64,000 bases of DNA. It comes from Cohaesibacter sp. ES.047 (lineage in GTDB: Bacteria; Pseudomonadota; Alphaproteobacteria; Rhizobiales; Cohaesibacteraceae). Of the stretch, positions 5,951 through 45,701 are shown piece after piece (position 1 is the stretch's first letter; every line of letters starts with the position of its first letter). The translations under genes were made by a program, and so were the position numbers. Under the pieces are notes generated by a model. That model worked only from the letters and a program-made list of their open reading frames with translations. It was not told the DNA's origin and ran no database searches. The stretch spans positions 992,001-1,056,000 of the forward strand of contig NZ_LT907844.1 of assembly GCF_900215505.1 (NCBI RefSeq), read 5' to 3'.

Positions 5951-6166
5951 AAAATAGGACCGCCTCTATGGACGGCTTCGCTTCTGGCTGCGAGCCTTCA
6001 AGTGAAGGGCAGCTTGTTCAATCCTGACGGTCAGAAAGTGGCGGCGGAAACCTTCTACCGCCGGATTACCGGTGATCAGGTCAATGGTTGCGGAGCCTAT
6101 GTCGATCCGGCGCCAAGAGTGGCCAGAGCCAAGGCTGCCGGCGTGCCCATGGTCTATGAAGACTGA
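5951..6166 (+). pseudogene. Possible remnant of an unrecognised gene (C-terminal fragment)
   Basis: An open frame of 71 codons lies in the 404-base spacer between the LacI regulator and the DMT permease. It has coding-like composition (SLFNPDGQKVAAETFYRRI, later GVPMVYED before TGA) but no plausible start. An upstream frame (NPIHLIGAANWSRK) ends at a stop just where this one opens, which would fit a frameshifted gene. I do not recognise the family. The rest of the spacer (5750-5900) shows nothing. Confidence 0.3.
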
Positions 6167-35070: not shown

Positions 35071-35993
35071 TTTTTGTGAAATCCGTTTTATGAACAATTT
35101 GGGTGATTTGATGCCTCGGAAACCGGCGTATTAAACAGGGAAATGCGCCGCATCTTTACTCTATGCAACTGTAGGGATTGTCAGGGGCCTCAGGGCTTTT
35201 TAGGATAACAGTCGAAAGTTGCACGACAATTATGCAATGTTGACAATTTGAATTGGTTGCTTGGCGTTTTGTTAAGCTTAAGCGTCGTGATGTGTGGATC
35301 GGTTCGGAGCGGGCGCTTTTGGACAAAAGTCTCAGAGGGACGCGGGGATGTGGCTGTCTGGCTGCGATCCGAGCGACTCGTTGCTCCTTAGGTGTTGCGG
35401 GCTACCGTCGTGTTTCGCGGTCGGGTTGTGGGGCGCCGGGAATTTGTTGTGGAGGAAAATAGCGCTGCGATACTGCGGAACGGCCGTATGGGGGGAGGCC
35501 GCGTCTTCTTGTTGTCAAAGCTGGGTCGGGGTGGCTTTGTTGCAGAAGCTTGGTTATCTCGTCATTTTTAGATTGAGCGCTGTGAGGCTGCGAGCGGGAC
35601 TTTCGCCCAAGGGGCTGGTTCCGGCCACCGGGTGCCTGTTGCAGGACAGGCCATCTCCATCGATCTGGCCTGACCGAGGGACGGAGCGCCTTGAATAAGA
35701 AAAGGTCGCAGACTGGTCATAAATAGATGATGAGGTGCTGTGATTTGGAGGGTGGTTGGATCATTCTCTTGGTAATGTCTAGAAGGGTGCTTGTTGAGCA
35801 AAAACCGTCCTAAAATGGAATGGGTTGTTGACTATCTGTCATAACTCGCGCAAAGGGCTAGTCGGGATCGCTTTTTCTTTCCATTTCGTTTGGTCCAAAA
35901 AGTGTTACTAGCCAATTGGCACTTTGAGTTTTCGCTCACTTTGTGCGATGTATTGTGTCTTCGGGACCGTGAAAGCAAAAAAGCAAAAACGAT
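35071..35993. other. Intergenic region between metK and the PKS locus
   Basis: About 920 bases without a convincing gene. An open frame at 35294-35698 has unusual Cys/Trp-rich composition and no family features. A TTGACA at 35239-35244 could be a -35 element, but no good -10 follows. The promoter of the 12-kb polyketide locus is probably here. Confidence 0.5.
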
Positions 35994-36071
35994 ATGAATA
36001 GAAAAACCGTCGAAGTCATAGGCCGCGCGTGTCGGCTGCGGCCGCGCGTGTCGGCTGCCAGGAGCCAATAA
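35994..36071 (+). CDS. Displaced N-terminus of the PKS ketosynthase, out of frame because of a 19-bp duplication
   Basis: From ATG 35994 the frame reads MNRKTVEVIGRACRL, the standard first beta-strand and loop of a ketosynthase (compare IAVIGMACRLPGA). At 36039 the second copy of a 19-bp repeat shifts the frame; it continues as RPRVSAARSQ and stops at TAA 36069-36071. The main PKS frame restarts at GTG 36073. With one repeat copy removed, the sequence reads continuously ...ACRLPGANNVAEFWDLL from 35994 to 43713 (2566 residues). As it stands it is a 25-residue peptide whose stop lies one base before the next start. Confidence 0.75.
   Translation: MNRKTVEVIGRACRLRPRVSAARSQ
36021..36058 (+). repeat. 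Perfect 19-bp tandem duplication at the PKS start
   Basis: The unit GGCCGCGCGTGTCGGCTGC occurs at 36021-36039 and again, without a single change, at 36040-36058. Nineteen is not a multiple of three, so the duplication shifts the reading frame of the ketosynthase N-terminus. Two exact adjacent copies are a typical substrate for slipped-strand gain or loss. Confidence 0.97.
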
Positions 36072-36072
36072 T

Positions 36073-39000
36073 GTGGCTGAATTCTGGGATCTGCTGATTT
36101 CCGGAACGTGCAGTGTTGACGAAATCGGACCGGATCGGTTTTCTACATTTCGCTATTTGCATCCGCTGACCGGTCAGGAAGGCAAGTCCTACACCTTCCG
36201 CGCTGGTGTTCTCGATGATGTGTGGGGGTTTGATCCGAGCGTCTTTTCGCTCTCGCCCCGCGAAGCCCTTCAGATGGATCCGCAGCAACGGCTTTTGCTG
36301 ATGCTGGTCTGGGAGGCTCTCGAGGAGGCGGGCGTTCCTGCCTCCAGCCTTGCTGGAAGCAACGTCGGTGTCTTCGTCGGCAACTCGGGCAGTGACCACG
36401 CCAACCGCTTTTTCTTTGATCCGGCGAGTTCAGACAGTTTCATGATGACCGGCAACACCACGTCGCTGGTCTCGAATCGAATCTCCTATATTTATGATCT
36501 GCATGGGCCGAGCTTCACAGTTGATACCGCTTGTTCCTCTTCGCTCGTGGCGCTGGATCTGGCGCTGAAACGATTGCAGGCGGGCGAGATCGACACGGCT
36601 ATTGTTGCGGGCGTGAATATGCTCTTGTCGCCGTTTCCTTTTGTCGGGTTTTCGGCTGCGTCCATGCTGTCGCCCGAGGGGCTTTGCCGTCCGTTCGACG
36701 AAAATGCCAATGGGTATGTGCGCGCCGAGGGCGGGGTCGTTCTCGTGCTGCAGAACAGCGATGCCTTCAAGAGTGGCGAGCAGAAGAGCTTTGGCCGGAT
36801 CGTCGAGGCGGGCATCAACTCCGATGGTCGGACATCAGGTGTCGCCCTGCCGTCACCGGAGTTTCAGGCTGAATTGCTCGAAAAGGTTTACAAGACAGCG
36901 GCCATAACGCCCGATCAGCTTGCCTTTATCGAAGCGCATGGTACGGGGACCCGGGTCGGGGATCCGGCCGAAACCTTTGCGCTCGGCAAGGTGCTTGGCG
37001 GTGGGCGCACGACGGTCTTGCCGATCGGATCGGTCAAGTCGAATGTTGGCCATCTGGAACCGGCTTCCGGCATGGTGAGTGTACTGAAATCCCTGTTGGC
37101 TCTCGAGCATGACATCCTGCCGCCGAGTCTGCATATCGAGACACCCAATCCGGACATCCCGTTTGACAAGCTCAACCTGTCCCTGACGCGCAAGGCACGT
37201 CCGCTCGAACGGGGTGATGCGATCCGGTTTGCAGGGATCAACAACTTCGGTTTTGGGGGCACCAACGCCCACGTTGTGGTGTCTGACAGTGTTGAAGCCA
37301 TCAGCAAAAGCAAGGCCGTCAGGACGAAAGCCAAATCCGGACAGGCTGCCGTGATCGACGATCAGGCGCGGCTTGTTGTCGTGTCTGCGCGGACGCCCGA
37401 TGCGCTTCGCAGTCTTGCTGGCGGGTATGCGCAACAGGTGCAACACAATGAGACCGCCAGTGTTGCCGACTGGAGCAATGCCATCGCCTGGCAACGCGAA
37501 TTGATGGATGAGCGCCTTGCTGTTGTCGCCAGCTCTCGTGAGGATCTGGCTGACAGACTTTCGCGTTTTGCGGCTGACAAGGGAATCGAAGGCACAGTTT
37601 CGGGGGCTGCTTCAAGAACGGCTCAGGATCCGGTCTTTGTCTACTCCGGCAACGGCTCGCAGTTCGCGGGCATGGGGCAGGAGGCCTATCGGCTCAATCC
37701 GGTGTTCAAGGCGCAGTTTGATGCCGTCGACGCCCTGTTCGAGCCGATTGCGGGCTGGTCTTTGAAAGACAAGCTGTTCAGCGACGATCTGAAGGAAGAT
37801 CTCAAGAGCACTTCGATTGCCCAACCGCTTCTGTTTGCCTTGCAGGTTTCCATTACTGACGCTCTGCGCAAAATGGGCGTTCGTGCCAGCGGTGTGGTCG
37901 GTCATTCGGTCGGTGAGGTTGCCGCAGCATGGGCGTGTGGTGCGTTGACGCTCAAACAGTCAGTCAAGGTCATCTATGTCCGCTCGCATCATCAGGAAGC
38001 GGTGCGTGGCGTCGGCAAGATGGCTGTGATCAAGCTGTCAAAGGAAGAAGCCCTTGCACAGATCGAGGAATCCGGGCTTGACGATGTCGAAATTTCCGCG
38101 ATCAACACAGCGAACTCCCTGACCCTGTCCGGTCCGACGGAGACGCTGCAGGCCTTCATGAAGACGGCCAAGAAAAAACGCCTGCCGGGCAAACTGCTCG
38201 ACATCGAATATCCGTTCCATTCCAGACAGATCGATCCCATCGAAGAGGGGGTCGTCAAGGATCTGTCTGACGTTAAGCCGACAGACTCGAGCATTCCCTT
38301 CTTCTCGTCGGTTTCCGGCGCAGAAATGGCGGGCACCAAGCTTGATGGCGGCTATTGGTGGAACAATGTGCGCAAGCCGGTGCATTTCTTCCATGCCATT
38401 CAGTCCGCTTTCAAAGACGGACGAAGCCAGTTCATTGAAATTGGTCCGCGCCCGATCCTCAAGGGCTATGTCTCCGAAATTGCGAGGGACGAAGGCCATT
38501 CGGCCAGTGTTGTCGAGAGCCTTCAGCAGAAGACAGACGGCGTTACCGATCCATTGCTTCTGGCTGTGGGGCGCGCGATCGTCAATGGTGCCGATTTCGA
38601 GCGCGAAACCGTGTTCGGAGCCAAGGCGCATCCAGATGTGTCGCTGCTGCCCTATCCATGGCAGATCAAACCGTTCAAGATCGATTCGAGCAGCGAAGCC
38701 TTCGAGATCTTCAACAGCACAGTTGCTCCCCATGCTCTTCTTGGCCAGCAACTGCGGCCCGATGACCATGTTTGGGATACCGAACTCGATACCGCGCTCA
38801 TTCCTTATTTCTCCGATCACCGGGTCGATGGCAAGGTCATCCTGCCGGGCGCGGCCTTTGCTGAAATGTGCCTGAGTGCTGCACGGATTGTCTGCAAGTC
38901 TGATCAGGTCGAGTTGAGGGACATGGATCTGTTACAGGCCCTTCAGCTGTCCGATGAAAAACCTATCTCGGTCCGCACGCGCCTTGATGAAGAGACCGGC

Positions 39001-42000
39001 GTGGTGGAGATTTTCAGTCGCAAGCGGTTAGTGGACGACGAATGGCAACTCCACACCAAGTGCCGGGTTGCTAGGATTCCGGGCAATGTCGGTCTTGAAA
39101 ATGCCGATCACGCCCTTGTCGCCCCCGTTCTTGATCGCCCCATGGATCAGTCTGAGATCGACGCGCTTTATCAGACGTCCCGGGATTTCGGTCTTGATTT
39201 CGGACCGGCGTTCCAGCGCATGGTCTATTGCGAGCGTTATGGTGATGACTACGTCGAAATCGTGCTTGATGAGCGTGGCCCCACCGATATCAAGGGTGAG
39301 CTGGTGGCGTCGCCCTATGCGCTGCATCCGCTCGATTTTGATGCCAGCTTCCACGGTCTGAACTGTCTGTACGAAGATCTTGACACCGGTCCGGACAAGA
39401 TGGCTTTCATCCCGGTTCGCTTCGGATCTTTGCGGGTCTATCAGGCGGCCACACCGGTGCGCTCGGCGCGTATTCATGTCATCCGGCATAACAATCGCGG
39501 TATTCAGGCGGACATCAATCTGTTTGCGGAAGACGGGACCTTGGTTGCTGCTCTGCGTGATGGTCGGTTCCGTTCCTCGGCTCTGGTTCAGCGCCAGGGG
39601 CTTGATCGCCTGACATACAGTTATGATTCCATCCGCGTGCCAGCTCCTGCCGGTCAGGTGGCTGTGCCTTCCCTCGATATCGAGGCGATCAGGGCTGCGA
39701 TGGCCGAACTGTCTCAACCTGATCGTCAACGGGCCGAAGACGGGCAGTTGCTGCTGCAGGCTGCGGCGCGGCGGGGGGCTTATGATGTGCTCCTCAGTTT
39801 GGCCGATGACGACAAGGTCCTGCGTCCGGATGCCCTTTCTGCACTTGGCCTTCTTGACGGACTGGATGCGGACGCTGCGACTGAAGATCTGCGTGCTCGC
39901 AATGAGCATCGCCTGAAACTGGTGCATTCCCTGATAGCGATTTGCGAGCAATCCGGTCTCGCCACGGCGCTTGACGAGGGCTGGCAGCTCAGCGACGAAA
40001 GTGACATGCCGGACGTGGATATGGTGCTGCAGCTGCTGCTCACCGAAGACCCGAAATGGTCTGCCGAATGTGTGATGCTCAATCATGCGCTCAACACCCT
40101 GCCGGATGCTCTGTTGGCTATGGACCGCCCGTTCGGCACGGCCCCACTGCCGCAGAATCTCTATTCGCAGGATCAATATGACCAGCATTACAGCTCCTCG
40201 CCGTTGGCGGAGGCGCATGTTCAGCAGGTATCCCGTGCGGTTGGTGCCGTGCTTGATGCCTGGCCCGAGGGACGTCCCTTGCGTGTTTTGGAGTTCGGTA
40301 TAGGTGGTGCGAGCCTGACCAAGGTGCTTCTGCCGATGGTTGAGCGCCTCGACGGGCAGCTTGTCTCGGTTGATACCAACAAGCTGATCGTGGATCGACT
40401 GCAGATCCTGTTTGCGCAGTCCATTCATTTCAAAACCCTTGCGATCAAGGATGCCCTGTCCGAGCTTGCGGCTCTTGAGCCGTTTGATCTGGTCGTGTCG
40501 GCCAATGGTCTGCAGGCGATGGATGGCGGTGCCGATCTGATATCGCAGCTCAGAACATTGGTGGGCCGGGACGGTCTGCTGCTTGCCAGCCTGTCGGACA
40601 GCAACGTGTTTCAGGACATTACCTTTGGCATGGCTGATCGATGGTTCGTCGATGGTCTCGATCCGACCCAGCCGGTATCTGCGCATGCTGATGCCGAGGA
40701 CTGGAAAGGGTGGATTGAGGACGCCGGATTTAAAGGTGTCTCGCTCGATCCTTTCGCCAACAACGATGGCGATGCCGATCTCACCGGGGCCTATGTGCTG
40801 GTGGGCTGCAATGCTGCCGAGTCTGAAGCCGTCGCGCCTGAAGCAAATGGGGCAGAGAACGGCGAGCGCCAGTGCATCATTCTGGTGAACAAGGGCAACG
40901 CGGCGGAGAAAAACTTTGCCAAGGCACTGATCACAGGTCTTGGGGATCTGGATGGCCGCCAAATCGCTCTTTCCGCCAAGGAGAGTGACGCGGATCGCGA
41001 AGCGCGCGTGACAGCAATCGCCGAAGCCGCCAAGGGTGGTGCGCTCGATTTGATCTGTCTTGCTGGGGCCTTTGACAGCTCTCAAGATCCGATGGCTGTC
41101 CTGTCGCCACGTCTTAAATGCCTTGCCGGTCTATTGCGGGATGTGGCCGAGTTGAAGCTGCGCTTGTGGATCCCCGCTCCGGGCGGTTTTCCGCATGTCA
41201 ACGGTCATGCCATCGATCCGGCACAAAGCGGTGTCTGGGCCTTTGGCCGAACCGCGAGCAACGAATATGGCAATCAGGACATCCGTCTTGTGGATTTCGC
41301 CAGTGCCTTGTCCGGCGATCAGCAAGCGGTGCGACTGGCTCAGACCATTCTGGAGCCGGGCGAAGAACGCGAAATGCTGCTCGAGACGAGCGGGCTGCGT
41401 GCCATGCGGGCCGTGCGCGGCGCGGCCAAGCCTGCGGCCAAGCCACAGGAGCGCTCTGAAGAGGCTGCTTGCCGTCTGCACCATCCGCGCACCGGGTCTT
41501 TTGATCGTCTGAGCTGGATCCCGGTTCAGCGCCGTCTGCCCGGTCCGGGTGAAGTGGAAATCGAGGTTGTCGGCACGGGTTTGAACTTCCGTGATGTCAT
41601 GTGGGCGCAGGGTCTCTTGCCCGAGGAAGCGCTTGAAGATGGGTTCGCAGGGCCGACGCTCGGTTTTGAATGTTCCGGCCGCATCGTCAGGATTGGCGAG
41701 GGAATTGATCGTTTCAAGATCGGTGATCCGGTGATGGCGCTGGCTCCGGCCTGTTTCGCGTCGCACGTGACCGTTGTTGAGACTGGAGTGTCTCGACTTC
41801 CTGACAGCATGGACCTGACGGCTGCCGCAACCATGCCGGTTGCCTTCCTGACCAGTTACTATGCTCTTCACTATCTGGCGCAGCTTGAAGAGGACGAATG
41901 GGTGCTGATCCATGGTGCCGCCGGTGCTGTCGGGCTGGCCGCCCTTCAGATCGCCAAATGGCGCGGCGCACGTGTGATCGCGACCGCGGGTAACCCTGAA

Positions 42001-43713
42001 AAACGCGAGTTTCTCAAGCTCTTGGGTGCGGACTATGTGTTTGACACAAGGTCGCTCAATTTCGTCGATGAGGTCCGCGCCATCACCCGTGCCGCCGACG
42101 GTCCGGGGAAAGAGGGCGTGGATGTGGTGCTGAACTCGCTGTTTGGCGAGGCCATGGAGCGCAGCCTTGAGCTGGTTCGGCCCTTTGGCCGGTTCCTTGA
42201 GCTGGGCAAACGCGATTTCTATGGCAACACCAAGATCGGCCTCAGACCGTTCCGGCGTAACATCAGCTATTTCGGCATTGATGCCGACCAGTTGCTCAAC
42301 CATCAGCCCAAGCGGGCGCGGCGTCTGTTCTCGGAGCTGTCGGACCTGTTCGAGCAGAAGCAGTTCTCGCTCCTGTCCTATCGCCTGTTCGAAAGCGAAG
42401 ACATTGTTGATGCTTTCCGCTTGATGCAGCGCTCCGGTCATATCGGCAAGATCGTCGTCAAGGCACCGCAGCCGACCATTCTGCCCGCCAAGGACGCAGG
42501 CCTTATGATTGATCCTAACGGGCATCATGTCATCATTGGTGGCCTCGGGGGCTTTGGTCTTGAAACCGCTTCATGGCTCGCCGATCAGGGTGCCAAGTCT
42601 GTGGTGCTGACCAGCCGTTCAGGAAAGATGACGGACGCGGCGAAAGCCCTTGAAGCTCGGCTTGCGGCCAAGGGGTGCAAACTGTCCGTCAAGGCCTGCG
42701 ATGTCACGGACATGACGGCTCTTGAAACACTGCTCGATGCGTTGCGCAAAGAGGCTCCGATCAAGGGGATCATGCATTCGGCTGTAGTTCTGGATGATAT
42801 TCTCATCGCCAACATGAGCGACAATCAGATCGATGCGGTCCTGAAGCCCAAAGTGGTCGGTGGTGAAAATCTCGATCAGGCAACCCGCGATGATGCGCTG
42901 GATTATTTCTGGCTGTTCTCGTCAGTCTCGGTTTTGATGGGCAACCCCGGTCAGGCCAACTATGTGGCCGCAAATGCCTATCTCGATGGCATTGCGCGCC
43001 GCCGCCGCAAGGAGGGCTTGCCTGCCCTTTCGATCGGCTGGGGGCCGATCACCGATGTGGGTATTCTGGCGCGGGATACGCAGACTGCGGAAATCCTTGC
43101 CAAGACCACCGGCGGGGCCGAATTCAAGGCCCGTCAGGCGCTTGATCGTCTGGTCGAATTCATTGCCGATCAGCCAGCCGACGCACAGCCTGCGACGATT
43201 ACCATCGCGCCGATGAACTGGGGCTTTGCCCGTGACAACCTCGCGGTTCTCAAGACCCCGGCCTATGAATTGCTCGCCCGCGAGGCGGCACAATCTTCCA
43301 ACCGGGATCAGCAGGCGGTGGATGTTGCCAGTCTGATTGACGGGCTGGATGATGTGACGGCCCGGACGGAGATTGCCAAGATTCTGGCTCAGGAAGTTGC
43401 AGCCATTTTCCGCATGCCGGTCGAGGAAGTTCAGCTCAATCGGTCACTGTCCGATATTGGCATGGATAGCCTGATGGGCATGGAGTTGCGTTCGGCAGCC
43501 CAGCAAAAGCTGGATATCGAAATTCCGATGGGTGCAATTGCCGATGGCACGACCATTGAGGATATCGCAGGAAGTGTGGTTCAGCGCATTCGCAAGGGAG
43601 CGGACAAAGGTCTCAGCTTTACCGAAGAAACGCTCATCCATCAGCATGTTGGCGGAGATGATGACGTGGAAGGCATGAAGAGCAAATTGTCTGATTTGCG
43701 TCAGGCCGTATAA
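36073..43713 (+). CDS. rkpA: Type I polyketide synthase, KS-AT-DH-MT-ER-KR-ACP (RkpA-like)
   Basis: Single-module highly reducing megasynthase, 2546 residues from GTG 36073. Domains in order: KS (1-410) with Cys154 in DTACSSSLVA, His289 in EAHGTGT and His327 in NVGH; AT (about 510-840) with Ser612 in GHSVGE and PFHS, which suggests malonyl-CoA; DH (about 890-1180) with His916 in HRVDGKVILPG and Asp1090. A methyltransferase-like region (about 1395-1560) has a weakened SAM loop (EFGIGGASLTK). ER (about 1815-2135) has HGAAGAVGLAALQ; KR (about 2150-2340) has Tyr2297; ACP carries Ser2466 in GMDSLMGMEL. There is no thioesterase domain. The architecture and the following oxoamine synthase match rhizobial RkpA, which makes a fatty-acyl precursor for capsular polysaccharide. 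The KS lacks its first strand because of the 19-bp duplication upstream; AGGAG at 36060-36064 could still start translation at GTG 36073. Confidence 0.9.
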   Translation: MAEFWDLLISGTCSVDEIGPDRFSTFRYLHPLTGQEGKSYTFRAGVLDDVWGFDPSVFSLSPREALQMDPQQRLLLMLVWEALEEAGVPASSLAGSNVGVFVGNSGSDHANRFFFDPASSDSFMMTGNTTSLVSNRISYIYDLHGPSFTVDTACSSSLVALDLALKRLQAGEIDTAIVAGVNMLLSPFPFVGFSAASMLSPEGLCRPFDENANGYVRAEGGVVLVLQNSDAFKSGEQKSFGRIVEAGINSDGRTSGVALPSPEFQAELLEKVYKTAAITPDQLAFIEAHGTGTRVGDPAETFALGKVLGGGRTTVLPIGSVKSNVGHLEPASGMVSVLKSLLALEHDILPPSLHIETPNPDIPFDKLNLSLTRKARPLERGDAIRFAGINNFGFGGTNAHVVVSDSVEAISKSKAVRTKAKSGQAAVIDDQARLVVVSARTPDALRSLAGGYAQQVQHNETASVADWSNAIAWQRELMDERLAVVASSREDLADRLSRFAADKGIEGTVSGAASRTAQDPVFVYSGNGSQFAGMGQEAYRLNPVFKAQFDAVDALFEPIAGWSLKDKLFSDDLKEDLKSTSIAQPLLFALQVSITDALRKMGVRASGVVGHSVGEVAAAWACGALTLKQSVKVIYVRSHHQEAVRGVGKMAVIKLSKEEALAQIEESGLDDVEISAINTANSLTLSGPTETLQAFMKTAKKKRLPGKLLDIEYPFHSRQIDPIEEGVVKDLSDVKPTDSSIPFFSSVSGAEMAGTKLDGGYWWNNVRKPVHFFHAIQSAFKDGRSQFIEIGPRPILKGYVSEIARDEGHSASVVESLQQKTDGVTDPLLLAVGRAIVNGADFERETVFGAKAHPDVSLLPYPWQIKPFKIDSSSEAFEIFNSTVAPHALLGQQLRPDDHVWDTELDTALIPYFSDHRVDGKVILPGAAFAEMCLSAARIVCKSDQVELRDMDLLQALQLSDEKPISVRTRLDEETGVVEIFSRKRLVDDEWQLHTKCRVARIPGNVGLENADHALVAPVLDRPMDQSEIDALYQTSRDFGLDFGPAFQRMVYCERYGDDYVEIVLDERGPTDIKGELVASPYALHPLDFDASFHGLNCLYEDLDTGPDKMAFIPVRFGSLRVYQAATPVRSARIHVIRHNNRGIQADINLFAEDGTLVAALRDGRFRSSALVQRQGLDRLTYSYDSIRVPAPAGQVAVPSLDIEAIRAAMAELSQPDRQRAEDGQLLLQAAARRGAYDVLLSLADDDKVLRPDALSALGLLDGLDADAATEDLRARNEHRLKLVHSLIAICEQSGLATALDEGWQLSDESDMPDVDMVLQLLLTEDPKWSAECVMLNHALNTLPDALLAMDRPFGTAPLPQNLYSQDQYDQHYSSSPLAEAHVQQVSRAVGAVLDAWPEGRPLRVLEFGIGGASLTKVLLPMVERLDGQLVSVDTNKLIVDRLQILFAQSIHFKTLAIKDALSELAALEPFDLVVSANGLQAMDGGADLISQLRTLVGRDGLLLASLSDSNVFQDITFGMADRWFVDGLDPTQPVSAHADAEDWKGWIEDAGFKGVSLDPFANNDGDADLTGAYVLVGCNAAESEAVAPEANGAENGERQCIILVNKGNAAEKNFAKALITGLGDLDGRQIALSAKESDADREARVTAIAEAAKGGALDLICLAGAFDSSQDPMAVLSPRLKCLAGLLRDVAELKLRLWIPAPGGFPHVNGHAIDPAQSGVWAFGRTASNEYGNQDIRLVDFASALSGDQQAVRLAQTILEPGEEREMLLETSGLRAMRAVRGAAKPAAKPQERSEEAACRLHHPRTGSFDRLSWIPVQRRLPGPGEVEIEVVGTGLNFRDVMWAQGLLPEEALEDGFAGPTLGFECSGRIVRIGEGIDRFKIGDPVMALAPACFASHVTVVETGVSRLPDSMDLTAAATMPVAFLTSYYALHYLAQLEEDEWVLIHGAAGAVGLAALQIAKWRGARVIATAGNPEKREFLKLLGADYVFDTRSLNFVDEVRAITRAADGPGKEGVDVVLNSLFGEAMERSLELVRPFGRFLELGKRDFYGNTKIGLRPFRRNISYFGIDADQLLNHQPKRARRLFSELSDLFEQKQFSLLSYRLFESEDIVDAFRLMQRSGHIGKIVVKAPQPTILPAKDAGLMIDPNGHHVIIGGLGGFGLETASWLADQGAKSVVLTSRSGKMTDAAKALEARLAAKGCKLSVKACDVTDMTALETLLDALRKEAPIKGIMHSAVVLDDILIANMSDNQIDAVLKPKVVGGENLDQATRDDALDYFWLFSSVSVLMGNPGQANYVAANAYLDGIARRRRKEGLPALSIGWGPITDVGILARDTQTAEILAKTTGGAEFKARQALDRLVEFIADQPADAQPATITIAPMNWGFARDNLAVLKTPAYELLAREAAQSSNRDQQAVDVASLIDGLDDVTARTEIAKILAQEVAAIFRMPVEEVQLNRSLSDIGMDSLMGMELRSAAQQKLDIEIPMGAIADGTTIEDIAGSVVQRIRKGADKGLSFTEETLIHQHVGGDDDVEGMKSKLSDLRQAV

Positions 43714-43801: not shown

Positions 43802-45241
43802 ATGTCCGTTGCAGACTGCAGACTTATGTCTAACAGTGTGTCCACGCTATTTGGTGCTGAACTGGAGCCCTTCATGAAAAAGTCGCCCGTTGATCGCGAT
43901 GCCATTCTCAACATGTCACGATCCATGGCCAAGAAGTCTCCCGCCAAGGCAGCATCCAAACGGAGCGTGCGTTCCAAGGTCGATCCCGCCAAAACCGATT
44001 TCAAGACCCTTGAGCTTTATCAGCAGATCAAGGTGCAGCGTGATATGGCGGAATTGCTGCAGACCCGGGATCCCTATTTCCTTGTTCATGAAGGGCGTGC
44101 TGGCGCGACGACACTTGTCGATGGTCGCGAGATGATCAACTTTGCCTCCTATGACTATCTCGGCCTCAACGGGCTTGATGAAGTGCATGCGGCAGCCAAA
44201 GAGGCGATTGACACCTTCGGGACATCCGTGTCCGGCTCTCGCCCCACGTCGGGTGAACGCCCGTTTCATGGGATGTTGGAACAGCAGTTGTCCGAGCTTT
44301 ACGAAAGCGAAGCGGCTCTGGTGTTCGTGTCTGGTCACGCAACGAATGTCTCAACGATCGGTGACTTGCTTGGAGCGTCGGATCTGGTTCTGTTTGATGC
44401 CTTCAGCCACAATTCGGTGACCACGGGCTGCAAACTGTCCGGTGCGACCCGCCGCTCGTTCAAGCATAATGATTTTGACGATCTCGAGCGGATCATTTCC
44501 GAAACCCGCGACAAGCATGACCGGGTGATGATCGTTGTCGAGGGGCTCTATTCCATGGATGGCGATACGCCCGATCTGGCGCGACTCGTTGACATCAAGG
44601 AACGCTTCGGTGCGTGGTTGATGGTTGATGAGGCTCACTCGCTGGGCATCCTCGGGGCGACGGGTTGGGGGCTGTTCGAAGAGCAGAATGTCGATCCCAA
44701 GAAGATCGACATCTGGATGGGCACCATGAGCAAAACCATGAGCGGCTGCGGCGGTTATATCTGTGGCAATCAGGCGCTCATCGATGTGCTGAAGTTCTTT
44801 GCGTCCGGGTTCATGTACAGCGTCGGACTTTCCGCTCCGCTTTGTGTCGCCGGCTCCAAGTCAATCGAAATCATGCAGCGGGAGCCGTGGCGGGTTGAAA
44901 AGCTACAGTCCAATGGCCAATATTTCCTCAAGGCAGCAAAGGCTGCTGGCTTGAACACCGGCCTCAGCCAGGGCTTTTGTGTGGTGCCCGTGATTGTCGG
45001 CGACAGCCTTCGGGCGGTGAAGCTGAGCAACAATCTGCTGGAGCGCGGCATCTATGCCTTCCCGATTACCTATCCGGCAGTGCCAATGAATGAGGCGCGG
45101 TTGCGCTTCTTTATCACAGCTGAGCATAGTGAAGAGCAATTGCAGGCGGCGGTGGACATCACGACCGAAGAGCTCAAGAAGCTGGAAGACGCCAATTTTA
45201 GTCTGTCGACTTCGATCAGCTCTCTGCATGAAAGCAAGTGA
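43802..45241 (+). CDS. rkpG: Alpha-oxoamine synthase (AONS/serine palmitoyltransferase family, RkpG-like)
   Basis: Cytoplasmic PLP enzyme of 479 residues from ATG 43802. An in-frame ATG at 43874 has a better ribosome site (GGAG six bases before) and would give 455 residues. It condenses an acyl thioester with an amino acid, with decarboxylation. Landmarks are NFASYDYLGL (about 109-118), GSRPTSGERPFH (about 145-156), FDAFSHNSV (about 198-206), VDEAHSLGILGATGWG (about 276-291) and the PLP lysine Lys311 in GTMSKTMSGCGG. A basic 60-residue N-terminal extension precedes the core. Lying 88 bases after a PKS without thioesterase, it may release the polyketide chain as an alpha-aminoketone, like RkpG, Fum8 or serine palmitoyltransferase. 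The amino acid used is unknown. Confidence 0.9.
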   Translation: MSVADCRLMSNSVSTLFGAELEPFMKKSPVDRDAILNMSRSMAKKSPAKAASKRSVRSKVDPAKTDFKTLELYQQIKVQRDMAELLQTRDPYFLVHEGRAGATTLVDGREMINFASYDYLGLNGLDEVHAAAKEAIDTFGTSVSGSRPTSGERPFHGMLEQQLSELYESEAALVFVSGHATNVSTIGDLLGASDLVLFDAFSHNSVTTGCKLSGATRRSFKHNDFDDLERIISETRDKHDRVMIVVEGLYSMDGDTPDLARLVDIKERFGAWLMVDEAHSLGILGATGWGLFEEQNVDPKKIDIWMGTMSKTMSGCGGYICGNQALIDVLKFFASGFMYSVGLSAPLCVAGSKSIEIMQREPWRVEKLQSNGQYFLKAAKAAGLNTGLSQGFCVVPVIVGDSLRAVKLSNNLLERGIYAFPITYPAVPMNEARLRFFITAEHSEEQLQAAVDITTEELKKLEDANFSLSTSISSLHESK

Positions 45242-45701
45242 TGCATGATTGAAAAGGGCTTCTTTGCCCGCTTTAGCCGGCGTTTTTATGACGTACGGCC
45301 TCACACACGTGGATATAGCGCCTTTGGGAGGTGTCATTGTCTGGGAAGTGTGTAGACTGAGCCGCGTGAAAGCGGTCAGAAGCGTGTCACATTGGATGCG
45401 CGTCTCTTGCGGAGCCAGTCTGGTTCCTGATCTCTGGCGTTGCCTTTCATTGAGGTGTTGACCCGTTTTAACGTATTCTTGTCTCAGTGCTTTTTTGTTC
45501 TTGGGTGGGCTGGGGATCAATGCACCGTCTGTCACAGTCGTGTGACGATTACATGGTTTGAATCTGAGGTGTGTCGCGCCGGGCCGTTATCGGTTGGCGG
45601 TGACGGATGCCTGTTCAAACCAATGAGTTTGAGCGTTTTGGTTGATCCGGTCTTCCTTCAAAGCGTTCAGGGAGAATAACCTTGTTTTTTGAGAGCGTGA
45701 C
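45242..45701. other. Spacer between the oxoamine synthase and the membrane-thioesterase gene
   Basis: About 460 bases with no gene I can support. A weak stem (GGGC/GCCC near 45256-45271) follows the upstream stop. The length suggests a separate promoter for the last two genes of the locus. Confidence 0.4.

Follow-up and report, generated by a model that had tools for sequence, protein, structure and literature searches.

A polyketide synthase (PKS) gene of Cohaesibacter sp. ES.047 carries at its start a 19-bp tandem duplication that shifts its reading frame, and this duplication is probably a natural, recent loss-of-function mutation in a capsule locus that is being lost. The repeat, GGCCGCGCGTGTCGGCTGC, consists of two exact head-to-tail copies at positions 36021–36058 of the 64,000-nucleotide stretch of DNA analysed here (the window), and a search of the plus strand found no third copy of the unit elsewhere in these 64 kb. 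The locus would represent a capsule-type locus caught part-way through loss, with its assembly and export genes gone and its lipid synthase freshly frameshifted and otherwise intact. Such a lesion is easily overlooked, because the open reading frame (ORF) of 2546 codons that remains resembles a whole gene. A search of the literature on capsule tandem duplication, rkp genes and Cohaesibacter, by title and abstract, found no published description of this locus.

All the features of the start lie on the plus strand. The original start, ATG 35994, is matched by an ATG at the equivalent position of the nearest relative (G016) and, as judged from the alignment, of most relatives; here, it opens an ORF of 25 codons ending at TAA 36069–36071 (35994–36071). 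The first copy of the unit occupies 36021–36039 and the second 36040–36058, and the extra 19 bp, not being a multiple of three, move the downstream codons into a different frame. The ketosynthase frame is closed on its 5' side by TAG 36019–36021; it opens at 36022, yet the stretch 36022–36072 contains no ATG, GTG or TTG, such that the first possible start codon of this frame is GTG 36073. The sequence AGGAG, similar to a Shine-Dalgarno motif, lies at 36060–36064, eight bases 5' of this GTG, and the TAA lies one base 5' of it. The repeat, the stop, the point of entry into the ketosynthase frame and the AGGAG had all been described in an earlier, sequence-only reading of this DNA, and are confirmed by our analysis. 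An additional ATG at 36071–36073, absent from that reading, overlaps the TAA 2 nt 5' of GTG 36073 and opens an ORF of eight codons in another frame (36071–36097), making it a rival to the GTG; it is six bases from the AGGAG, versus eight for the GTG. Ribosomal frameshifting found no support, inspection by eye of both frames and of the stop context revealing no known slippery site. Folding predictions for the DNA of the repeat showed nothing unusual (z-score −0.15), and a promoter scan yielded one site for 1.2 expected. A short motif, GTGAAAG, 18–25 bases 5' of the PKS start, is common to most members of the genus in the alignment (window 35944–36000).

The PKS is present in 12 of the 17 other genomes of the genus, and the DNA around its start finds a match in 13 of the 18 genomes when that of ES.047 is included, the five without a match being G005 (64% complete), G008, G010, G015 and G017. 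All 12 PKS-bearing relatives have a single copy of the 19-bp unit and a complete ketosynthase N-terminus, opening with V/A-E-V-I-G-R-(A/S)-C-R-L-P-G-A; the duplication is, thus, derived. This is the pattern expected of a recently inactivated gene, namely a derived lesion affecting a gene that is otherwise conserved among relatives, and it supports the recent inactivating mutation that the sequence-only reading had listed among its explanations. The same reading had considered that homologous PKSs might naturally start at the equivalent of 36073; this idea is ruled out by the full N-terminus in these 12 genomes and in seven of 11 loci from outside the genus (the start was read in these seven, the remaining four, on the minus strand, being left out). 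The patterns used for the N-terminus found no match in G018 (L044). In G012 (L042), the ATG is absent from its usual place, and the first canonical in-frame start is a TTG 36 bases 5' of the VEVIGR motif. The PKS of G016 (L033, 3829–11538) contains two indels in homopolymer runs that place about 320 codons in another frame. These indels are likely to be draft errors, given that a nearby molybdopterin oxidoreductase gene of the same genome (L068, 6448–8695) is similarly split; a parallel inactivation of the PKS in this nearest relative was, therefore, set aside and given no weight.

The ORF entered at GTG 36073 (36073–43713) encodes 2546 residues, in which Pfam and alignment identify ketosynthase (KS), acyltransferase (AT), dehydratase (DH), methyltransferase-like, enoylreductase (ER), ketoreductase (KR) and acyl carrier protein (ACP) domains. 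The catalytic motifs of the KS, AT and ACP are intact; the motif patterns for DH and KR found no match in the PKS, yet Pfam detects both domains. The same PKS is encoded, at 64% identity, by the corresponding locus of C. marisflavi (NZ_FOVR01000009), and the first 20 columns of the alignment with that protein are missing from the window PKS. Consistent with this, the match to PF00109 begins at profile position 21 of 252 here, versus position 2 in G016 and 4 in C. marisflavi. All 12 relatives conserve the 20 residues that are missing here, which correspond in alignment to the N-terminal strand region of solved ketosynthases; this strand is central to the ketosynthase fold. From these lost residues and the poor start, we infer that the PKS protein does not work. 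An AlphaFold model of the C. marisflavi ketosynthase had a mean pLDDT of 29.3 and was given no weight.

In all 12 relatives, the PKS gene is followed, in the same order, by genes for an oxoamine synthase, a short-chain dehydrogenase, a KpsC-like protein, a polysaccharide-export protein and a KpsS-like protein (families were assigned in G016, and by synteny in the other relatives). This layout is that of rkp/wcb clusters, in which a single-module iterative PKS precedes oxoamine synthase, short-chain dehydrogenase and KpsC/KpsS-like genes. The PKS of the window may be a counterpart of rkpA, the name used in the sequence-only reading. The rkp/wcb group of single-module PKSs (RkpA/WcbR) is named in PMC3908369. 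Unlike these clusters, the window retains the PKS and oxoamine synthase alone. The alpha-oxoamine synthase-like gene (BioF/serine palmitoyltransferase family; 43802–45241, plus strand) is intact, and the last four genes of the operon are absent: their place is taken by 288 bp (45242–45529) unmatched in the loci of relatives, and similarity to G016, in which the interval is about 5 kb long, picks up again at 45530.

No Capsule_synth gene was found elsewhere in the genome. The KpsC-like query found no match in the ES.047 genome and matches in 12 of the 18 genomes of the genus, and the polysaccharide-export query, which detects the loci of the relatives, also found none in the ES.047 genome. The capsule synthesis family PF05159 (Capsule_synth), to which both the KpsC-like and the KpsS-like proteins belong, has no match in the 5.1-Mb genome of ES.047, whereas each of the 12 relatives has five to nine matching stretches, of which two may come from a single gene; G017 has one weak match, and G005, G008, G010 and G015 have none. 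The dehydrogenase query found 26 general relatives in the ES.047 genome, the best eight being 27–34% identical, and proteins 50–64% identical in the 11 non-self loci of relatives. Of the 17 other genomes, the same 12 encode all three of the PKS, the oxoamine synthase and the KpsC-like protein, so that ES.047 alone has a PKS but lacks capsule genes. The presence of the four genes in the nearest relative and in all the others makes a deletion here the simplest account. One result runs partly counter to this absence: a KpsS-like C-terminal fragment at window positions 5984–6151, of about 56–58 residues, with about 40–41% identity to the G016 protein and about 32–41% to the KpsS proteins of the main operon as a whole. 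Only the tail end is present, no complete gene being found around 5984–6151, and the fragment is probably, judging from its sequence, a remnant of another capsule gene. A further KpsC-like gene, 31–34% identical to the downstream one, lies directly 5' of the PKS in 11 of the 12 relatives (L032, L034–L043), whereas G000 and G016 have an S-adenosylmethionine synthetase gene there instead, on the other strand.

The body of the PKS shows no sign of relaxed selection. Relative to G016, dN/dS was 0.033 for codons 1–209, 0.089 for codons 213–533 and 0.086 for codons 537–2545, with a value of 0.088 for the oxoamine synthase. Changes confined to one lineage in codons 537–2545, counted with G011 as the outgroup, were 175 synonymous and 27 non-synonymous in ES.047 versus 190 and 21 in G016 (Fisher p = 0.29). 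Both tests are blunt, because dS relative to G016 (0.9 to 1.8) is near saturation; as far as codon comparison can tell, they show the PKS body to be still under purifying selection. Long neglect is not visible, so the PKS, if dead, died recently. Given the intact KS, AT and ACP motifs, the gene may have functioned until very recently or be functional even now; the selection result is also compatible with continued use.

The preferred reading, a recent natural inactivation, can be described as follows. A single replication slip in this lineage would have duplicated the 19 bp, ending the original frame after 25 codons; ribosomes could then reach the remaining 2546 codons, if at all, only through a weak GTG, and the resulting ketosynthase would lack its first 20 residues. 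The PKS would no longer be protected because its capsule pathway is being lost, with the four assembly and export genes deleted. That the loss is recent is suggested by the identity of the two copies, the 2546 codons without a stop and dN/dS values of 0.03–0.09. Either the deletion or the duplication may have been the earlier event.

An error in the assembly or consensus, with a single copy in the true chromosome, is an unlikely alternative. Some assemblers are known to handle exact 19-bp tandems poorly, and the apparent conservation of the PKS body would fit such an error. However, the genome is a single contig of 5,110,232 bases, 99.98% complete with 0.31% contamination, and the surrounding sequence appears clean: each of the 36 G016 ORFs matching the window at more than 68% identity does so in a single piece. 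Exact two-copy tandems with a period of at least 12 are also not significantly denser here (eight in 464 kb, made up of the window and 20 sampled 20-kb stretches of the genome) than in relatives (two in 324 kb; Fisher p = 0.21). It would also be a coincidence for an error to have struck the very locus from which four neighbouring genes have independently disappeared.

Alternatively, coupled re-initiation at GTG 36073 could still yield a PKS that functions despite lacking its first strand, as part of a pathway no longer serving a capsule. The closeness of the AGGAG and the TAA to this GTG, which had led the sequence-only reading to conceive of re-initiation, stands, as do the open frame with its catalytic motifs under purifying selection and the intact oxoamine synthase gene, but several observations make this reading very unlikely. 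ATG 36071, in a dead-end frame, is the better start by the usual rules, and the AGGAG falls within a predicted RNA stem (z-score −2.31; three of 200 shuffles fold equally well). The AGGAG is also accounted for by Pro-Gly-Ala codons common to the relatives, and the residues lost, conserved throughout these relatives, are aligned with the N-terminal strand of solved ketosynthases. The coupled re-initiation proposed earlier is, thus, possible in its layout and weakened by the neighbouring ATG and the stem. It is most improbable that a short re-initiated PKS and the oxoamine synthase supply a lipid for a purpose other than the capsule, with slippage in copy number possibly acting as a tuner; if this were so, the 19-bp duplication would mark the turn of a capsule lipid pathway to a new use.

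The sequence-only reading had also proposed a reversible ON/OFF switch for a surface-lipid pathway. In such a switch, a 19-bp copy would be gained or lost by slippage, and production of the PKS and of a surface polymer would alternate accordingly, as described for pneumococcal capsule genes. An exact two-copy tandem is reversible in principle, and reversible sequence duplications have been reported in pneumococcal capsule genes (PMC4243769). Spontaneous tandem duplications in pneumococcal cap3A, cap8E/wchA and tts were described by Waite et al. (2001, 2003), as cited in PMC4243769 and PMC4022640, and for a 9-bp duplication the expected reversion is no more than about 1e-5 (PMC4022640). The present case resembles these in that a short exact duplication inside the frame of a capsule-pathway gene abolishes that gene and is reversible in principle; in the pneumococcal cases, according to the same sources, the capsule locus is otherwise intact and revertants have been described, whereas here the downstream capsule genes are gone. 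The gene of the window also differs in making a lipid part, in a marine alphaproteobacterium. Since the genes that would use the PKS product are missing, loss of the extra copy would not turn a capsule on, and reversal could not restore the capsule of the relatives. The locus resembles slipped-strand contingency loci (simple-sequence phase variation) in that a change in repeat number near the start causes a frameshift, but such loci have a repeat tract varying in copy number among relatives and an otherwise intact pathway; here, a 19-bp unit is present twice in a single genome, the repeat is found at this site in none of the 12 relatives, and four capsule genes are missing, with PF05159 unmatched. 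A single additional copy does not amount to a tract maintained for switching. The repeat-free relatives and the loss of the downstream pathway rule out a switch as the most likely reading and leave it a very slender chance; were the two-copy state nevertheless mixed in the population, this would add a further example of a short duplication switching the gene of a large enzyme.

Tandem duplication is an ordinary type of event in this genome, as indicated by the eight exact tandems in the 464 kb sampled. None of 10 second-order Markov shuffles of the window contained an exact tandem with a period of at least 12. The periods of the eight are 12, 13, 14, 14, 15, 18, 19 and 22, three being at least 18. 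The PKS tandem is the only one of the eight that clearly breaks a conserved gene, the coding context of at least two others being ambiguous. One 14-bp tandem lies within a mechanically predicted ORF of 81 residues, and the remaining tandems are either at the border of an ORF of at least 80 residues or clear of any such ORF. The 18-bp tandem (L047, 11215–11256) lies within an ORF of 775 residues and keeps its frame, and the 22-bp tandem (L048, 1449–1494) is located 15 bases past an ORF of 240 residues, within short mechanically predicted ORFs.
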